A DNA stretch of 64,000 nt, from NCBI GenBank assembly GCA_029261855.1, contig JAJDAN010000038.1, positions 92,051 through 156,050 on the forward strand. The letters run 5' to 3'. The first letter of the stretch is position 1, and each line of letters starts with the position of its first letter. The translations under genes were made by a program, and so were the position numbers. This stretch comes from Deltaproteobacteria bacterium (lineage in GTDB: Bacteria; Myxococcota_A; UBA9160; UBA4427). Below are positions 51,823-57,987 of the stretch, piece after piece. The notes below the pieces were generated by a model. That model did not search any database. It worked only from the letters and a program-made list of their open reading frames with translations, and was not told where the DNA came from.

Positions 51823-52005
51823 TCAGCCGCGTCGGCGTCCGTACAACACGAGTCCCAGCAACCCGATGGCGACGAGCAGCGCAGTGTGAGGTTCGGGGAT
51901 AGGATTCACAGTTCGTCGACCACTTCGAAGACCCCGATGCTCCCGGCTGTGTCCCCAGCGCTTTCGCCGCTCAGACGAGGACTCTGATTCGCACGCCGGA
52001 TTCAT
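51823..52005 (-). pseudogene. Orphan PEP-CTERM sorting signal, probable remnant of a surface protein gene
   Basis: A 60-codon frame whose last 28 codons read VNPIPEPHTALLVAIGLLGL then VLYGRRRG and stop, a complete PEP-CTERM signal (PEP motif, hydrophobic helix, RRR). The 32 codons before it are Arg/Ser/Glu-rich and unlike any secreted domain, and no signal peptide or longer coding frame extends upstream before repeat array B begins. I read it as the decayed 3' end of a PEP-CTERM gene. A very short real gene cannot be excluded. It lies in the 361-base gap between the subtilase gene and the CoA-transferase gene. Confidence 0.5.
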
Positions 52006-52050
52006 CGGTCGTTCGCGATCGAAACCGAAGGACCGGCAAGCGACGTGCAG

Positions 52051-52150
52051 AGCGCCTGCAGCTTCCCGAAAGCGCCGGTGGCTTCGGGTAAGCGCCGGCG
52101 GCTTCGGGTAAGCGCCGGCGGCTTCGGGAAAGCGCCGGCAGCTTCAAGTG
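52051..52150. repeat. Tandem repeat array B, five 20-bp units
   Basis: Five contiguous 20-bp units (52051, 52071, 52091, 52111, 52131) fitting AGCGCCNGCNGCTTCNNGWA, ending one base before the subtilase stop codon (52152-52154). Core GCGCC(T/G)GC(G/A)GCTT is shared with array A, about 5 kb away, which has the same 20-bp period. Not a CRISPR: units are contiguous without spacers. Confidence 0.85.
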
Positions 52151-52151
52151 C

Positions 52152-53606
52152 TCAGCGACAGGGGCGGTCGAGCCGCGCGAGCACGTCGCACACCGGAGGC
52201 AGGCGCGGCGGTTGCGCGCCGACTGCCGGTTGCTGGCTCGCTTGCTGGAAGAGCGCGCGTCTCGCCGAGACCGGGTCGGCGCCCGCACCGAGCAGGATCG
52301 CGAGCGAGCCCGTGACGTGCGCCGCCGCGAAGCTCGTGCCACTTCCGAACGCAAAGGCATCGCCGGGGACCGTGGACAGGATCTCGACGCCGGGCGCGGA
52401 CAGCTCGGCGGAGGGGCCGCGATTGCTGCGGTCGAAGAGACGTCCTTCGCGATCTTCCGCGCCGACTCCGATGACCGCCGGATAGGCGGCGGGGTAGCGC
52501 GGGTCGCTGGTGCCTTCGTTGCCCGCCGCGGCGACGACCAGCACCCCCAGCTCGTCGAGCCGTTCGGTTCCGCGCGCGAGCAGGGGATTGTCCGGTCCGA
52601 CGATCGACAGGTTCACGATGGCGGCCTGCTGTTCCCAGGCGACGTCGAGCCCTCGCAAAACGATGAACAGCGGACAGGTGTCGTTCGCGGTTGCACCCAT
52701 CGGCGTGCACACGGGGACGGCCACGAGCTCGACGTCGGGGGCCAGGCCGGCGATGCCGAAGCCATTGCCTTCGATGGCGTACACCAGGCCGGTGACGAGG
52801 GTGCCGTGGGCGCCGGGCGTGCCGGCGCTCGGCCCGCCGTCCACGGGTGCCATCTCGATGGGGCCGAGATCGCGGTGGCTCGTCTGCGGTGCGGAATCCA
52901 GGATGGCGACGCGCACACCGGCACCCTTCGAGACGGACCGGGCGCGCTCCACGCCGGACTGTTGCAGACCCCACTGCAGCGGGCGGTAGGGGTCGGGGCG
53001 CATCACGCCGGCGTCGGCCAGCGGCACGATCTCGTCGGCGGCGGTGCGGTAGACGTGATTCGGAACCAGTGCTGCCGTATCCGGTGCGACGGGCACCAGC
53101 TCTTCCGGTCGCGCGCCCTTCGGGCCGGTGATGCGGGCCACCGTCGCGCACAGCACGGGGCTCCAGTACGACTCTGCGACCCGCGCCTGGGCGCCGAGCT
53201 CGAATTCCCTGGACGTCCCCTTCGGCAGCGCGAGGATCGCCTCGCCCGAGACCTGGCCGGCGGGGGCGTCGCCCGTCGCGCTCGGCAAGCTGATGATCTG
53301 GCCCCCGCGGTCGGCGATGGCCGCCTGCGCCGGCCGAGCGGGAGCGATTCCCGGCTCGGAGGTCTGCGCGAGCTGCGCGAAGGATCTCCCAGTCTCGAAC
53401 GGCGCGCAGGCGCCAGCGTCCGCTCCCTCCGCTTCGTCCGCGACGCCGGGAGCGTCCGCGACGTCGCGAGAGAGAGGAACCGCATGCGCCACGTCCGGCA
53501 CCCACTGCCCGAAGCCGAGGAAAACGGCCACGAGAACGAGTCGAACCCAGGCGGGCCCCGCGTCAGGGACGGAGCGGCTTTTCTGCAAAGGTTGCGACAC
53601 CGTCAC
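52152..53606 (-). CDS. Secreted S8 family subtilisin-like serine protease
   Basis: 484 residues. Signal sequence at about 20-42. Catalytic triad: Asp237 in VAILDSAPQTSH, His268 in GAHGTLVTGL, Ser425 in FGSGTSFAAAH; oxyanion Asn363 in AAAGNEGTSD. The 150 residues between the signal and the catalytic domain show no I9-type propeptide, although such a domain seems to be present on the anti-sigma factor made by the preceding gene. Cys residues are placed for one or two disulphides. GTG 53606 overlaps the anti-sigma gene by 44 bases; GTG 53600 is also possible. Repeat array B starts one base after its stop. Confidence 0.9.
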   Translation of the reverse strand: MTVSQPLQKSRSVPDAGPAWVRLVLVAVFLGFGQWVPDVAHAVPLSRDVADAPGVADEAEGADAGACAPFETGRSFAQLAQTSEPGIAPARPAQAAIADRGGQIISLPSATGDAPAGQVSGEAILALPKGTSREFELGAQARVAESYWSPVLCATVARITGPKGARPEELVPVAPDTAALVPNHVYRTAADEIVPLADAGVMRPDPYRPLQWGLQQSGVERARSVSKGAGVRVAILDSAPQTSHRDLGPIEMAPVDGGPSAGTPGAHGTLVTGLVYAIEGNGFGIAGLAPDVELVAVPVCTPMGATANDTCPLFIVLRGLDVAWEQQAAIVNLSIVGPDNPLLARGTERLDELGVLVVAAAGNEGTSDPRYPAAYPAVIGVGAEDREGRLFDRSNRGPSAELSAPGVEILSTVPGDAFAFGSGTSFAAAHVTGSLAILLGAGADPVSARRALFQQASQQPAVGAQPPRLPPVCDVLARLDRPCR

Positions 53607-54351
53607 GATCCTCGGTCAACAGCTTCTTCGCGGCGGTGAGGTCCACGTCCGCGCCCAGTTCCAGTCGGTATACCCCGAGCTGGCTGGGACCGCTCGTTAC
53701 GCGAGCTCCCAGGGCGCGTAGTGTCTGGTTGATCTGCGAGGCGTTCGCGTCCTCGCGGAAGACGACCTCGAGGGTCGCGTGACCCTTCGTCGCCCCCTCC
53801 TGTGCAGACGTGGACGCGCTGGCCGTCTCGTATACCGGCTCGGGCTCCCCGCCTCGTCTCAGGACACCGGGGCCCACGAGCGCGCCCACCGCCAGCGCCA
53901 GCAGCAGGCTCGCCGCCAGGGCGACGCGCTTCCCGGACGAGGCGCCGGCGACGCGTCGCCAACCCATGGCCTGGGGCTCGTCGGGCGCGTCGCTGCGCTG
54001 GCGCAGCGGAAGCTGCGACACGCTGGCTCCCTTCGCTCCCTTCGCCCTTTCGCCGTCTTCGGTGCCGCCCTCGCGGCGCAGGACATCCGGCGGTGCGGCT
54101 TCCATGCGCGCCAGCACCTGTGCGTAGATGCGTTCCGGGTCGGGCGCTTCGCCCGACTCGGCCAGGTCCGACCCCTGCAACCCGAGCGACCCCTGCAGCA
54201 TGGCGATCTCGTCGCGGCAGTCGCTGCAGCCCGCTGCGTGCGCCTCGACGGCGCCGCGCTGGGTCTCGTCGAGCCCGTCGGGATACCAGGGGATGAAGCC
54301 GAGCACGTCGGCGGGACACTGTGTCTGGGGAGGTGTTCGATGGGTGCTCAT
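53563..54351 (-). CDS. Zinc-finger anti-sigma factor with propeptide-like C-terminal domain
   Basis: 262 residues. HxxxCxxC (His38, Cys42, Cys45; EAHAAGCSDCRDEI) is the zinc anti-sigma domain that holds the ECF sigma factor in the cytoplasm. A single membrane helix (about 142-165) follows a Pro/Gly-rich linker. The periplasmic end (about 194-262: LEVVFREDANASQINQTLRA, then LGARVTSGPSQLGVYRLEL) looks like the small domain found as propeptide/inhibitor on S8 proteases, with the ALGA...LGVY pattern. Overlaps the sigma gene by ATGA and the protease gene by 44 bases. Signal released perhaps by proteolysis of this domain. Confidence 0.85.
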   Translation of the reverse strand: MSTHRTPPQTQCPADVLGFIPWYPDGLDETQRGAVEAHAAGCSDCRDEIAMLQGSLGLQGSDLAESGEAPDPERIYAQVLARMEAAPPDVLRREGGTEDGERAKGAKGASVSQLPLRQRSDAPDEPQAMGWRRVAGASSGKRVALAASLLLALAVGALVGPGVLRRGGEPEPVYETASASTSAQEGATKGHATLEVVFREDANASQINQTLRALGARVTSGPSQLGVYRLELGADVDLTAAKKLLTEDRDGVATFAEKPLRP

Positions 54352-54929
54352 GCCGTGAGACCTGAGAAGGCGCTGGATGCGGTGGACCGAAGTCTCGCCC
54401 GCGCGCGCGATACGCGGGTCTTGACGGTGTTCTCGGAAACGCCGAGGTGTTCGGCGATTTCCGTGTAGCTCCAGCCTTCGAGGACGGACAGCTGCAGCAC
54501 CTGCCGCTGGCTTTCCGGCAGCTTCTCGATGGCGTCGAGCGCTTCCTTGAGTGCTTGCCGGGAAGCGAGGTTCTCGCTCGGATCGTCTTCGCCCGCGAAC
54601 TGGTGAAGCCTCTCGACGTTGGTCGGGATCACCCGCGAGATGCGCTTGCTGCTGCGGTGACGGATGGCGCTCAGTGCCTTGAAGTGCGCGATGCCGAAGA
54701 TCCAGGTCGACACCTGGGAGTCGCCGCGAAACGCGTCGGCCGCTCGCCAGATCTCGAAGAAGACGTCGGCGACGACTTCCTCGGCGAGGGAATCGTCGTT
54801 GAGCCTGCGCCGGACGAGCCCGAAGACCCGACGGTAGTAGCGGTCGAACAGGGTCCGGTGCGCGGCCACGTCCTGGTGCTGTGAGATGCGTTCGATGAGT
54901 TGCTGGTCTTCAGTGACCGTGTCACTCAC
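54348..54929 (-). CDS. ECF-type RNA polymerase sigma factor
   Basis: 193 residues. Region 2: LFDRYYRRVFGLVRRRLNDD, EEVVADVFFEIWRAADAFRGD, STWIFGIAHFKAL. Region 4: LPESQRQVLQLSVLEGWSYTEI, then AEHLGVSENTVKTRVSRARARL. No extra domains. GTG start with AAGGGAAGG nearby. It is coupled to its anti-sigma factor by an ATGA overlap. Its targets may include the adjacent operon, but I see no clear ECF -35/-10 pair to test that by eye. Confidence 0.95.
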   Translation of the reverse strand: MSDTVTEDQQLIERISQHQDVAAHRTLFDRYYRRVFGLVRRRLNDDSLAEEVVADVFFEIWRAADAFRGDSQVSTWIFGIAHFKALSAIRHRSSKRISRVIPTNVERLHQFAGEDDPSENLASRQALKEALDAIEKLPESQRQVLQLSVLEGWSYTEIAEHLGVSENTVKTRVSRARARLRSTASSAFSGLTA

Positions 54930-55039
54930 GGGTGCGATGCCTTCCCTGGGATGGAGGTGTGCTGCGAGGTTGCCTTACAGGGTGTGTCGCCGTTCGCCCG
55001 GACCCGGTGCCGGCGAATCGCGCGATCACCGCTGGTTTC

Positions 55040-55061
55040 CCCGCGGGCCACCTGCCGCGGG
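55040..55061 (-). terminator. Hairpin after the small secreted protein gene
   Basis: CCCGCGG, 8-nt loop, CCGCGGG, in the 155-base gap between the small secreted-protein gene and the sigma factor. On the minus strand it lies downstream of that gene; no U-tract. May separate two transcription units of the block. The rest of the gap shows nothing. Confidence 0.4.
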
Positions 55062-55084
55062 ATCTGGGGCCGGCTGACGACGGC

Positions 55085-55489
55085 TCACGGCCGCGCGCCG
55101 GGCGGGAGGCCGGGCACCGGCTCGGATTCGATGAAGGCCGGTCCTCCGGCAGAGCAACCCATGGGCTCGTCGCACAGACTGGGCGAGGGCGGTCCCGCGG
55201 AGCTCGGGGGCGGCACCGGCGGGGGGCCGGCCGCGGTCAGGGTCGACGACACCTGCGCGGGGACCAGTCGCGCGGCGGGGCTGCCCGCGATGTCGAAGCT
55301 CGAAGGCCGTGCGGCGTCCACCAAACCGCGCGGGCGGGCGCACTCGCCCGGCGGCGCCAGGGTGTCCCGCGTGTCCGTCGACGGCTTGTCGGAGGGCGCG
55401 TCGTCTGCGAAGGCCACCGCCGTCACGGAGGCGGACAGCAGGACGACAGCGGCGAGAAGGACGAAGAGGGTCGGGAGGAATCGCTGCAT
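55085..55489 (-). CDS. Small secreted proline-rich protein, family not recognised
   Basis: 134 residues with a clear signal peptide (1-28, VTAVAFA). The mature part is Pro/Ala/Ser-rich with only three Cys (GECARP, SLCDEPMGC) and no recognisable domain; it ends PGLPPGARP. Coding status rests on the signal peptide, tight spacing (18 bases) after the TPR/beta-barrel gene, and frame. Function unknown. Confidence 0.55.
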   Translation of the reverse strand: MQRFLPTLFVLLAAVVLLSASVTAVAFADDAPSDKPSTDTRDTLAPPGECARPRGLVDAARPSSFDIAGSPAARLVPAQVSSTLTAAGPPPVPPPSSAGPPSPSLCDEPMGCSAGGPAFIESEPVPGLPPGARP

Positions 55490-55507
55490 GGGGGTCTCGT
55501 TTCAGGG

Positions 55508-57118
55508 TCAGGGGCCGATGCGGCCCTTCAGGTGCAATCCCACCACGTGGCGGTGGTACTTGAAGACCTTCGCGGTGGAATCGTTGTCGTCGTAGCGCCA
55601 GGCGAAGATCAGGCTGAGCTTGTCGCCGAGTGCTCGCTCGAGGGAAGCGCCGACGTTCCACTCCCGCTCGCGTTTGTTGGTCCCGGAAAGTGCGTACTCG
55701 GTTCCATCCGTCGGGGTCTGATTCGGGTAGGTGGAGGGATGGCGATAGGGCCGGTACTTGAAGCCGACCTCGAAGTCGAAGAGCACCTGCCAGGGCAGGG
55801 TGGCGCCCGTTCCCACGACGAACGCGTGCTGCTGGAAGCTGTACTCGAGGCCGCGCGAGTCGTACCAGGAATAGGCGTAGCCGCCTCGCGCTGCGAGACC
55901 GGTGAGGCCGAGGGTGTCGGGCAGGGGCAGGGCGTGCAGGAAGCCCGCGGAGACCTCCCAGCCGTCGCGGTTGCGCGCGCTCGCTTCGTTCAGCCCGGGC
56001 GGACCGCAGGCGCTGACGTTGCCCGGGCACGAGTCGCCGGGCGTTCCGTCCCCGTCCGGGACGTCGAAGGTGTCGAACAGGAAGTCGTCCCGGGTGTAGC
56101 CGAGGTCGAGGCGCGTCTGTCCCCAGTCGCCGAAACCCTCGAACAGCGACGCCTCGAAGACGTGCTCGGACAGATACTGGTTGTCGTCCACCCACGCGAA
56201 GCCGTACTCGTAGCGGCCGCGCAGGACGGCGTCCTCGGTGAGGACCCGGTCGAGCCACACCGAGACCGTCGGATACTGGGTGTCGAATTCGTGGATCTTG
56301 GCCTGGCGGGTGCCGTAGTAGCCGCCCATCAACCCCAGGGTCCAGTCTTCGTCGCGGTACAGGGTGCTGCCGGCGGACAGGGTCCAGACCCCGCGCCAGT
56401 CGGCCTTGTCGCTGATCTCGTCGGGCAGGTCGACTCCCGAACCCTTGAGGACGACGTTGGTGTCGTATTCGGCGCCGATGCTGCCTTCGAGCCACCACTG
56501 CATGCCCGGGTCTTCGAGTCGGTCGAGGGCGCGTCCGGCCTCTTCGGCCCAGGCGCTGCCGGGCCACTCGTCCGCCACGCGCTCGAGGGCGGTATGGGCG
56601 CGTTTGCGATCCACGTCCGCCAGGGCCAGGCCCTGGTAGAACGACGAGACCGGCTCGGCGTAGCCGGGATCCATGGCGCGCGCGCGCTCGAGGGCGGCGA
56701 CGCCCGCCTCCCGGTCCGCGGCCTCGAGCAGCAGCAGGCCGCGGTAGAGCTGGACGTTGGCCCGGTCGGGGTCCCGGGCTTCGGCGCGGTCGAGGGCCTC
56801 GCGGGCGCCGTCGAGGTCTTCGAGGTGATAGCGGGCGATGGCGAGCGAGACGTCGACTCCGGGCAGCGAGGGGTCCACGGCGCGGGCGGCTTCGATGGCC
56901 GCCGTCGCCTCCTCGTAGTGCTGGAGCCGGATCAGGCATTGGCCCGCGACGAGGCTTGCCTCGGCGTCCCGTGGGTCGTCTGCACGTGCGCTCTCGAGGT
57001 CCGGCAGCGCGGCCGGGCAACGACCCTCGCGTGCCAGCGCCATTCCACGCTCGCGCGGTCCGGTAGCTGACGCGGCGGCCACCGAGAGCAGCAGCGACGC
57101 GCACAACACGCCGCACAT
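55508..57118 (-). CDS. TPR-containing outer membrane beta-barrel protein (Slam-like architecture)
   Basis: 536 residues. Signal peptide 1-19; TPR region about 25-210 (LPDLESARADDPRDAEASLV, YEEATAAIEAARAVDPSLPG and similar); C-terminal about 300 residues form an outer membrane beta-barrel opening with GSIGAEYDTNVVLKG and ending HRHVVGLHLKGRIGP, alternating pattern to the end, though without a terminal Phe. TPR plus barrel matches the Slam/DUF560 and similar exporters, so export or retention of surface proteins is a reasonable guess. ATG 57118; a long in-frame extension upstream is not credible. A 12-bp tandem repeat lies just upstream. Confidence 0.78.
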   Translation of the reverse strand: MCGVLCASLLLSVAAASATGPRERGMALAREGRCPAALPDLESARADDPRDAEASLVAGQCLIRLQHYEEATAAIEAARAVDPSLPGVDVSLAIARYHLEDLDGAREALDRAEARDPDRANVQLYRGLLLLEAADREAGVAALERARAMDPGYAEPVSSFYQGLALADVDRKRAHTALERVADEWPGSAWAEEAGRALDRLEDPGMQWWLEGSIGAEYDTNVVLKGSGVDLPDEISDKADWRGVWTLSAGSTLYRDEDWTLGLMGGYYGTRQAKIHEFDTQYPTVSVWLDRVLTEDAVLRGRYEYGFAWVDDNQYLSEHVFEASLFEGFGDWGQTRLDLGYTRDDFLFDTFDVPDGDGTPGDSCPGNVSACGPPGLNEASARNRDGWEVSAGFLHALPLPDTLGLTGLAARGGYAYSWYDSRGLEYSFQQHAFVVGTGATLPWQVLFDFEVGFKYRPYRHPSTYPNQTPTDGTEYALSGTNKREREWNVGASLERALGDKLSLIFAWRYDDNDSTAKVFKYHRHVVGLHLKGRIGP

Positions 57119-57140
57119 CGCCCGGCCCAGGACCCTGCTC

Positions 57141-57172
57141 GACAGCCCGACTGGCAGCCCGACTGACAGCCT
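57141..57172. repeat. 12-bp tandem repeat upstream of the TPR/beta-barrel gene
   Basis: GACAGCCCGACTG, GCAGCCCGACTG, ACAGCCTGAG: about two and a half units between the PEP-CTERM gene and the TPR gene, 23 bases before the ATG of the latter. Function unclear. Confidence 0.45.
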
Positions 57173-57183
57173 GAGCCCCGGGG

Positions 57184-57987
57184 CTAGCCGCTGGCTTCTG
57201 GCTGTCGCCCTCTCTCTCGAGAAGTGGGGCACCCGGCACTCTCCATGCTTCTGCCCCCCCGAGCGGTTTCGCGTCTGCGGCCGAAGAGGGCGATCCCCGC
57301 CAACCCGGTCGCGCAGAGCAGCAGCGTAGTCGGTTCCGGGACTTCCGTGTAGCTGAGCGCGACGGCGAGCCCCAGGGGAGCCAGCACCTGGGACGCGTCG
57401 CTGATCGCGAGGGGCCCGCCCACCACGTAACGCACCAGGATCTCGGTCGATTCGCCCTCTGCGAGGTCCGGCAGGACGATCGCGCCGTAGAGGATGTCGG
57501 GCCCGGACGGGGGCACGTAGCGCAACAGATCGAGCAGATCCCCGTCGAGCCCGATCTGGGGATTGCCCGGGTACGTGTTCAGCGGATCGAGGACGGTGAA
57601 CAGCAGGACGGGCGCCGCGAGGGCGCCCGCGCTGACGTTCTCGATGGTCCAGGTGGAGTCGACGATGGCGGGGTCGCTGGGCGTTGCGGTCGCCGGCAGC
57701 TGATGGATCGTCGTGATCGCCTGGGAGCTCACCCGCACGGAGGCTCCGGACGACGGGCCGCCCGCCCCGATGAAGAGGTCCGAGGGCGTCGCCTCGAGGG
57801 AGGGTGCGATCCCGCTGGCCGCGACATCGGCCGGGTCGAAGCCCTGGCCCTGGTCGGCCTGGAAGTAGAGCGGCGTGACGTCGTCGATGGTGAGCGCCGC
57901 GGCCGGCAGGGGACTGACGAGGAGCAGCCCGAAGAGGAAACCCTTCGCCAGGGACGACTGTTCGCTGGACGGAATTCGGCACGACAT
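57184..57987 (-). CDS. PEP-CTERM surface protein with unusual C-terminal tail
   Basis: 267 residues: signal peptide 1-31 (PLPAAA), then a beta-rich domain (about 32-212) with no Cys and no recognised family, resembling other PEP-CTERM secreted domains. VPEPTTLLL (216-224), hydrophobic helix and GRRRE (236-240) form the sorting signal, but it is followed by 28 further residues; the sorting signal is normally at the very end. A run of seven C (G on the coding strand, 57254-57260) lies just after the RRR, so a frameshift or stop-codon change may have lengthened the tail. First gene of the six-gene minus-strand block. Confidence 0.82.
   Translation of the reverse strand: MSCRIPSSEQSSLAKGFLFGLLLVSPLPAAALTIDDVTPLYFQADQGQGFDPADVAASGIAPSLEATPSDLFIGAGGPSSGASVRVSSQAITTIHQLPATATPSDPAIVDSTWTIENVSAGALAAPVLLFTVLDPLNTYPGNPQIGLDGDLLDLLRYVPPSGPDILYGAIVLPDLAEGESTEILVRYVVGGPLAISDASQVLAPLGLAVALSYTEVPEPTTLLLCATGLAGIALFGRRRETARGGRSMESAGCPTSRERGRQPEASG

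Follow-up and report, generated by a model that had tools for sequence, protein, structure and literature searches.

What connects a secreted protease to the sigma switch and the surface proteins that are encoded beside it? This question is raised by a six-gene block at positions 52152-57987 on the minus strand of the DNA analysed here (64,000 nucleotides from a 6.96-Mb genome, hereafter the window), which encodes a PEP-CTERM protein, a tetratricopeptide repeat (TPR) protein with a beta-barrel half, a small secreted protein, an extracytoplasmic function (ECF) sigma factor, a membrane zinc anti-sigma factor and a secreted S8 subtilase. A preliminary description of the window had delimited the block in this way, and both the gene calls from open reading frames and the family searches bear it out. 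What that first reading overlooked is the periplasmic end of the anti-sigma factor, which, judged by profile matches and structure prediction, is a subtilase-prodomain-like domain.

The periplasmic end of the anti-sigma factor

The domain spans residues 190-262 of the 262-residue anti-sigma factor (window 53563..53784, minus strand). The Pfam fervidolysin prodomain PF22148 was detected in 9 of 17 full-length orthologues with a best E-value of 2.1e-5, and the window protein itself reached 22.4 bits for the domain alone (cut-off 21) and 19.0 bits, just below the cut-off, as a whole protein. The AlphaFold model has a beta-alpha-beta-beta-alpha-beta fold with a predicted local distance difference test score of 86-96 over residues 191-260. 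Its top Foldseek matches in the PDB were subtilisin propeptides, pro-subtilisin, fervidolysin, EpiP and the inhibitor POIA1, at probabilities of 0.97-1.00 and E-values of 0.03-0.09. In the reverse direction, the domain profile, run against Lysobacter genomes, recovered ordinary subtilases at their N-terminal prodomains (E-values of 5.7e-5 and 9.1e-5 per genome). A PDB sequence search with the same profile gave no meaningful match, and a plasmid search with the domain consensus gave none.

In nearly all orthologues of the class, the protein ends 3-6 residues past a conserved FAEP-like motif, and in the window protein about 5 residues past it. By its sequence, the anti-sigma C-terminus would stop at about the position of the cleavage site between a prodomain and its protease.

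Association of the domain with the protease

Among 32 loci with a domain-bearing anti-sigma factor and room downstream, the S8 gene follows directly in 28, compared with none within 4 kb of 20 zinc anti-sigma factors of the same class that lack the domain; since these 20 controls are probably largely one family, the contrast does not represent 20 independent draws. The association also recurs outside the phylum. In the class that was reached via a betaproteobacterial record, the domain was found in 8 of 185 genomes, and six of the eight domain loci of that other phylum carry the ECF sigma, anti-sigma and S8 genes in the same order and on the same strand. Furthermore, the domain co-diverges with the protease and not with the sigma factor: across 15 loci, the partial correlation of the distances, given sigma and barrel, was 0.68 for domain and S8, versus -0.03 for domain and sigma, in a test whose label permutation controls shared ancestry only in part. 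These data suggest that the protease itself is what the sigma switch senses or is cut by.

In a betaproteobacterium, Devosia and Lysobacteraceae/Lysobacter (L081, L090-L093), too, a sigma gene and an S8 gene are close neighbours, on opposite strands. These loci are only loose parallels, because the anti-sigma factor that follows the sigma gene in L090 and L092 has no prodomain-like end.

Components of the signalling trio

The ECF sigma factor (193 residues, GTG start, 54348..54929, minus strand) consists of regions 2 and 4 without region 3 (Sigma70_r2, E-value 6.6e-15; Sigma70_r4_2, 2.5e-21) and shares 41-53% identity with 17 orthologues. The anti-sigma gene (53563..54351, minus strand) overlaps it by 4 nucleotides in an ATGA. 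Its product matches zf-HC2 (23.1 bits, cut-off 22.2), as do all 17 orthologues, in which C12 and H38-x3-C42-x2-C45 are invariant. One membrane helix is predicted at residues of about 143-163 (53863..53925, minus strand) from a hydrophobic stretch, within which the AlphaFold model places a helix at 143-158. With the Hx3Cx2C motif and this single predicted helix, the protein can be assigned at the sequence level to the class I zinc anti-sigma factors.

The S8 gene (484 residues, GTG start, 52152..53606, minus strand) overlaps the anti-sigma gene by 44 nucleotides, and the two overlaps imply coupled expression of sigma factor, anti-sigma factor and protease. The enzyme is predicted to be secreted, with a signal-peptide-like start, and it matches Peptidase_S8 (E-value 4.8e-31), the only protease family found in the block proteins by the Pfam scan, which also detected no PDZ domain in them. 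The catalytic residues D237, H267, N363 and S425 do not vary among 15 orthologues, and the AlphaFold model matches pro-subtilisin E with an E-value of 8e-20. The model also contains a prodomain-like region of the protease's own at residues 117-188 (53043..53258, minus strand), made of strands 117-128, 142-149 and 154-160, helix 167-170 and strand 179-188, and apparently without the first helix of the fold. No sequence relation between this region and the anti-sigma domain was detectable with hhalign, which speaks against an origin of the latter as a recent duplication of the protease's own prodomain.

With regards to function, we consider the chances evenly balanced that the anti-sigma factor docks the secreted protease of its own operon in a prodomain-like manner and that the complex gates sigma release, probably via cleavage of the anti-sigma factor; for the docking, this reading draws on fold, adjacency and co-divergence. 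As in its family, the zinc domain would hold the ECF sigma factor at the inner membrane. The periplasmic domain would dock the downstream-encoded subtilase as a prodomain or an I9-type inhibitor docks subtilisin, and its free C-terminus would sit like a cleaved prodomain in the active-site cleft. Depending on the state of the complex (whether the protease arrives, moves on to other substrates or attacks the linker of the anti-sigma factor), the anti-sigma factor would then be exposed to cleavage. The likeliest first cutter would be the S8 enzyme, followed by the site-2 protease of the RseP type for which the genome holds a candidate (Peptidase_M50, E-value 9.7e-58). The freed sigma factor may raise expression of the operon and probably also of the upstream display half, composed of the PEP-CTERM protein, the Slam-like barrel and the small protein.

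Conservation of the block

A search with profiles built from the first relatives, in which contig ends cut several further loci, found a core of five genes (TPR/barrel protein, small protein, ECF sigma factor, anti-sigma factor and S8 protease) in fixed order and on one strand at 18 loci in 18 different genomes. All of them are Myxococcota metagenome-assembled genomes (MAGs) of the window's class, with several families represented, and the gene order is kept far beyond chance. The preliminary description had named a lack of conserved neighbours in related genomes as evidence against a unit; the neighbours are conserved, and of the six genes it had joined, the five of the core hold together, whereas the PEP-CTERM gene is missing from some loci.

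The full-length anti-sigma factor of the block type was found in 27 of 91 sampled genomes of the class (strong matches, E-values of 2e-39 or better), with a patchy distribution even inside the family to which the window belongs. When 284 genomes from across the phylum were sampled, no full-length match lay outside the class, and a contig search with the anti-sigma factor alone as query gave no match. According to the S8 alignment, the closest named relative carrying the protease is the Myxococcota MAG contig JANQSB010000607.1, which is identical to the same-genus contig G001:C297. Diverged second copies within the class retain the trio of ECF sigma, anti-sigma and S8 genes (L134, L137, L138), and two further loci (L043, L053) have the trio without the barrel genes.

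The region 3' of the S8 gene shows several features of its own. In the window, imperfect tandem repeats of about 21 nucleotides (cccgaagccgccggcgctta) lie directly behind the stop codon (52040-52150, minus strand). They are followed, 146 nucleotides 3' of the S8 gene, by a short open reading frame with a complete terminal PEP-CTERM signal (VNPIPEPHTALLVAIGLLGLVLYGRRRG; 51823-52005, minus strand), apparently what is left of a PEP-CTERM gene. The distance from the S8 gene to the next gene is only about 100 nucleotides in a genome of the same genus (L058). Five loci (L044, L050, L055, L066, L071) have another ECF sigma gene, distinct from the first, just 3' of the block and convergent to the S8 gene.

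The display half and its transcription

The PEP-CTERM protein (267 residues, 57184..57987, minus strand) matches PF07589 with 23.4 bits against a cut-off of 20.7. Its signal above the cut-off and the exosortases of the genome (seven matches, next to 38 PEP-CTERM matches) are what PEP-CTERM/exosortase sorting calls for. About 65 nucleotides separate its gene from that of the Slam-like TPR protein with its C-terminal barrel half (about 536 residues, ATG start at 57118, 55508..57118, minus strand). The window copy matches general TPR families only; TPR_Slam PF24575 was found in 5 of 12 orthologues (best E-value 2e-6), and the barrel family SlipAM (DUF560) PF04575 appeared weakly in 3 of 12, with a best E-value of 0.032, which is below significance. 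Among the matches listed in a PDB sequence search with the barrel protein, only the TPR half was represented, and no TbpBBD-type barrel/lipoprotein C domain was matched in the PEP-CTERM protein by the Pfam scan. After another 18 nucleotides follows the small Cys/Pro-rich secreted protein (134 residues, 55085..55489, minus strand), a conserved family without a Pfam or NCBIfam match, which the orthologue profile places between the barrel and sigma genes in nearly all loci.

The PEP-CTERM gene belongs with the barrel gene. PEP-CTERM homologues adjoin the barrel gene upstream in eight loci (L048, L151, L153, L154, L156, L157, L158, L159). In the window and in G001, G045, G050 and G052, the PEP-CTERM gene lies 5' of the barrel gene, and barrel, small-protein or sigma genes then follow as far as the contig reaches or to the end of the full block. 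Separate PEP-CTERM/barrel loci away from sigma genes are found in G034, G047, G031 and G033, and the PEP-CTERM/Slam-like pairs in L154, L156 and L158 have no adjoining trio. The barrel protein may be what exports the PEP-CTERM protein.

Three side observations concern the same genes. A motif F-[DS]-P-x-D-V-A-A is common to PEP-CTERM proteins (window 57184-57987; L151) and small proteins (L039, L044, L047, L049, L054, L055), and a small protein with the DVAA motif is also present beside the PEP-CTERM/Slam-like pair in L154; the motif is possibly a common recognition site, or it recurs by chance. In L044, L049 and L055, a divergent Ser/Thr protein kinase gene lies just 5' of the barrel gene, at the place of the PEP-CTERM gene in the window. 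In G039 (L152 6445-8816, the same region as L075), a PEP-CTERM fragment is joined without a break to an S8 catalytic domain that is read in a different frame; the barrel, small-protein, sigma and anti-sigma genes are absent, apparently through a deletion or an assembly error.

With regards to transcription, no ECF-type promoter shared across orthologues was found 5' of the barrel or the sigma gene, either as -35/-10 pairs or as words enriched over shuffled sequence, and autoregulation and sigma control of the surface genes are therefore no more than possibilities. One ECF-like site lies 5' of the window's PEP-CTERM gene (GCAACTTTT...CGTT), as a single case. The preliminary description had proposed an envelope-sensing unit in which protease, sigma switch and exported surface proteins are linked. 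The conserved unit stands, and the link between protease and switch has become more specific than proposed, because the ectodomain of the anti-sigma factor resembles a subtilase prodomain and tracks the protease; for the proposed control of the surface genes, no shared promoter was found. A better reading of the block is that two modules, an export/display half and a signalling trio, have been joined in this class, since the display half is in part found without sigma genes, and some genomes of the class, as well as genomes outside the phylum, have the trio but not the display half.

Going further, the six genes could form two independent transcription units in which the sigma factor has no control over the PEP-CTERM protein, the barrel and the small protein. 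This is a real possibility, if clearly a minority one, and it is compatible with the best explanation of the trio. The longest gap of the block, 155 nucleotides 5' of the sigma gene (54930..55084, minus strand), may hold an internal promoter, which fits such a division as well as the missing shared promoter and the occurrence of pairs and trios on their own do; the persistence of both halves as neighbours, with order and strand unchanged, at 18 loci from several families argues the other way.

Alternative roles of the domain

In addition to the promoter result, the single-family character of the controls and the partial control of ancestry in the co-divergence test, several points weigh against docking between anti-sigma factor and protease. 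The Foldseek E-values are modest, all above 0.01, and beta-alpha-beta-beta-alpha-beta or ferredoxin-like folds are common. Four loci (L052, L057, L135, L136) carry the domain with no S8 gene downstream. Finally, the protease carries its own prodomain-like region, which shows no detectable sequence relationship to the domain of the anti-sigma factor, and so need not use the latter.

Some of these points lead to different roles. The anti-sigma end might act in trans as a folding helper or inhibitor, by analogy with known propeptide chaperones, so that the protease is kept capped and tethered, the sigma factor merely sets the dosage and it is mainly the switch that acts on the protease. We regard this as unlikely. 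The apparently missing first helix of the protease's own prodomain would fit such a helper, the translational overlap would favour matched amounts, and the ORF2 structure (2mk4), which we take to be the external chaperone of the subtilase ASP, is among the weak fold matches of the domain. A propeptide-deficient subtilase with a separate, neighbour-encoded external chaperone is indeed known from Aeromonas ASP (Kobayashi 2015, as cited in PMC9549277). However, the protease still has a prodomain-like region, and without a signalling role it is difficult to see why two phyla should both retain this domain as part of a membrane protein that holds a sigma factor. Quite improbable is a domain of the same common fold that senses an unrelated ligand in an ordinary ECF operon with the protease as a co-regulated secreted product: the frequency of ferredoxin-like folds, the four loci without S8 and the Foldseek values would allow it, but the Pfam prodomain matches, the true subtilase prodomains that the profile retrieves, the adjacency contrast, the recurrence in a second phylum and the co-divergence with S8 and not sigma speak against it.

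Returning to docking of the protease by the anti-sigma factor, we tentatively extend it, at slightly less than an even chance, to a class of sigma signalling found in at least two phyla. In this class, the anti-sigma factor would have captured a subtilase prodomain to sense its own secreted subtilase, be it a dedicated site-1 protease or a cell-surface messenger, and in the Myxococcota class the switch would be wired to a Slam-like/PEP-CTERM display module. If true, a subtilase that recognises an anti-sigma factor via a copy of its prodomain would add an enzyme class and a simple docking logic, one domain signature could predict protease/anti-sigma pairs in other phyla, and a handle would be gained on the regulation of surface display in uncultured Myxococcota with many PEP-CTERM proteins.

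Comparison with known systems

The arrangement had been presented as undescribed, and our literature search provisionally agrees: with the main ECF reclassification outside its scope, it found no description of a prodomain-bearing anti-sigma factor or of an S8 site-1 protease. The site-1 proteases named in a review are DegS/DegP, SipS/SipT and Prc, with S8 enzymes not among them (PMC7593790). In the RseA/DegS/RseP pathway of sigma-E, a periplasmic serine protease and a membrane anti-sigma factor are combined as here, with a site-2 protease in the genome; however, DegS belongs to protease family S1 and senses through a PDZ domain, whereas the block has an S8 enzyme and no detected PDZ domain. 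ECF54 likewise has a subtilase conserved in its neighbourhood, which was proposed to degrade the sigma factor (PMC8999054), but it is described without an anti-sigma factor, whereas the block has one with a prodomain-like end and accordingly falls outside ECF54.

For the display half, type XI secretion by Slam offers the same combination of an N-terminal TPR part and a C-terminal barrel beside candidate surface cargo, with weak matches to both Slam Pfam families. The barrel-family match is nevertheless below significance, and the cargo here is a PEP-CTERM protein without the TbpBBD/lipoprotein C domain; the literature examined on this system deals with Proteobacteria and does not mention PEP-CTERM. 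Within the same phylum, the subtilisin-like protease PopC of Myxococcus xanthus is restrained by a separate partner, PopD, and then released onto surface proteins (PMC6434023). PopD is, however, not reported as an anti-sigma factor, and PopC exits via the TonB-dependent transporter Oar.

The precedent for an anti-sigma factor that binds the active site of an enzyme and is then cleaved is RsiV of the sigma-V system in Bacillus subtilis, whose membrane-anchored ectodomain binds the active-site pocket of lysozyme, inhibits the enzyme and is then proteolysed (PMC5014341). There, the partner is a foreign lysozyme and the cut is made by signal peptidase, whereas here the likely partner would be the S8 protease encoded in the same operon, and the ectodomain resembles a subtilase prodomain. 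We rate the block as a variation on ECF/anti-sigma signalling.

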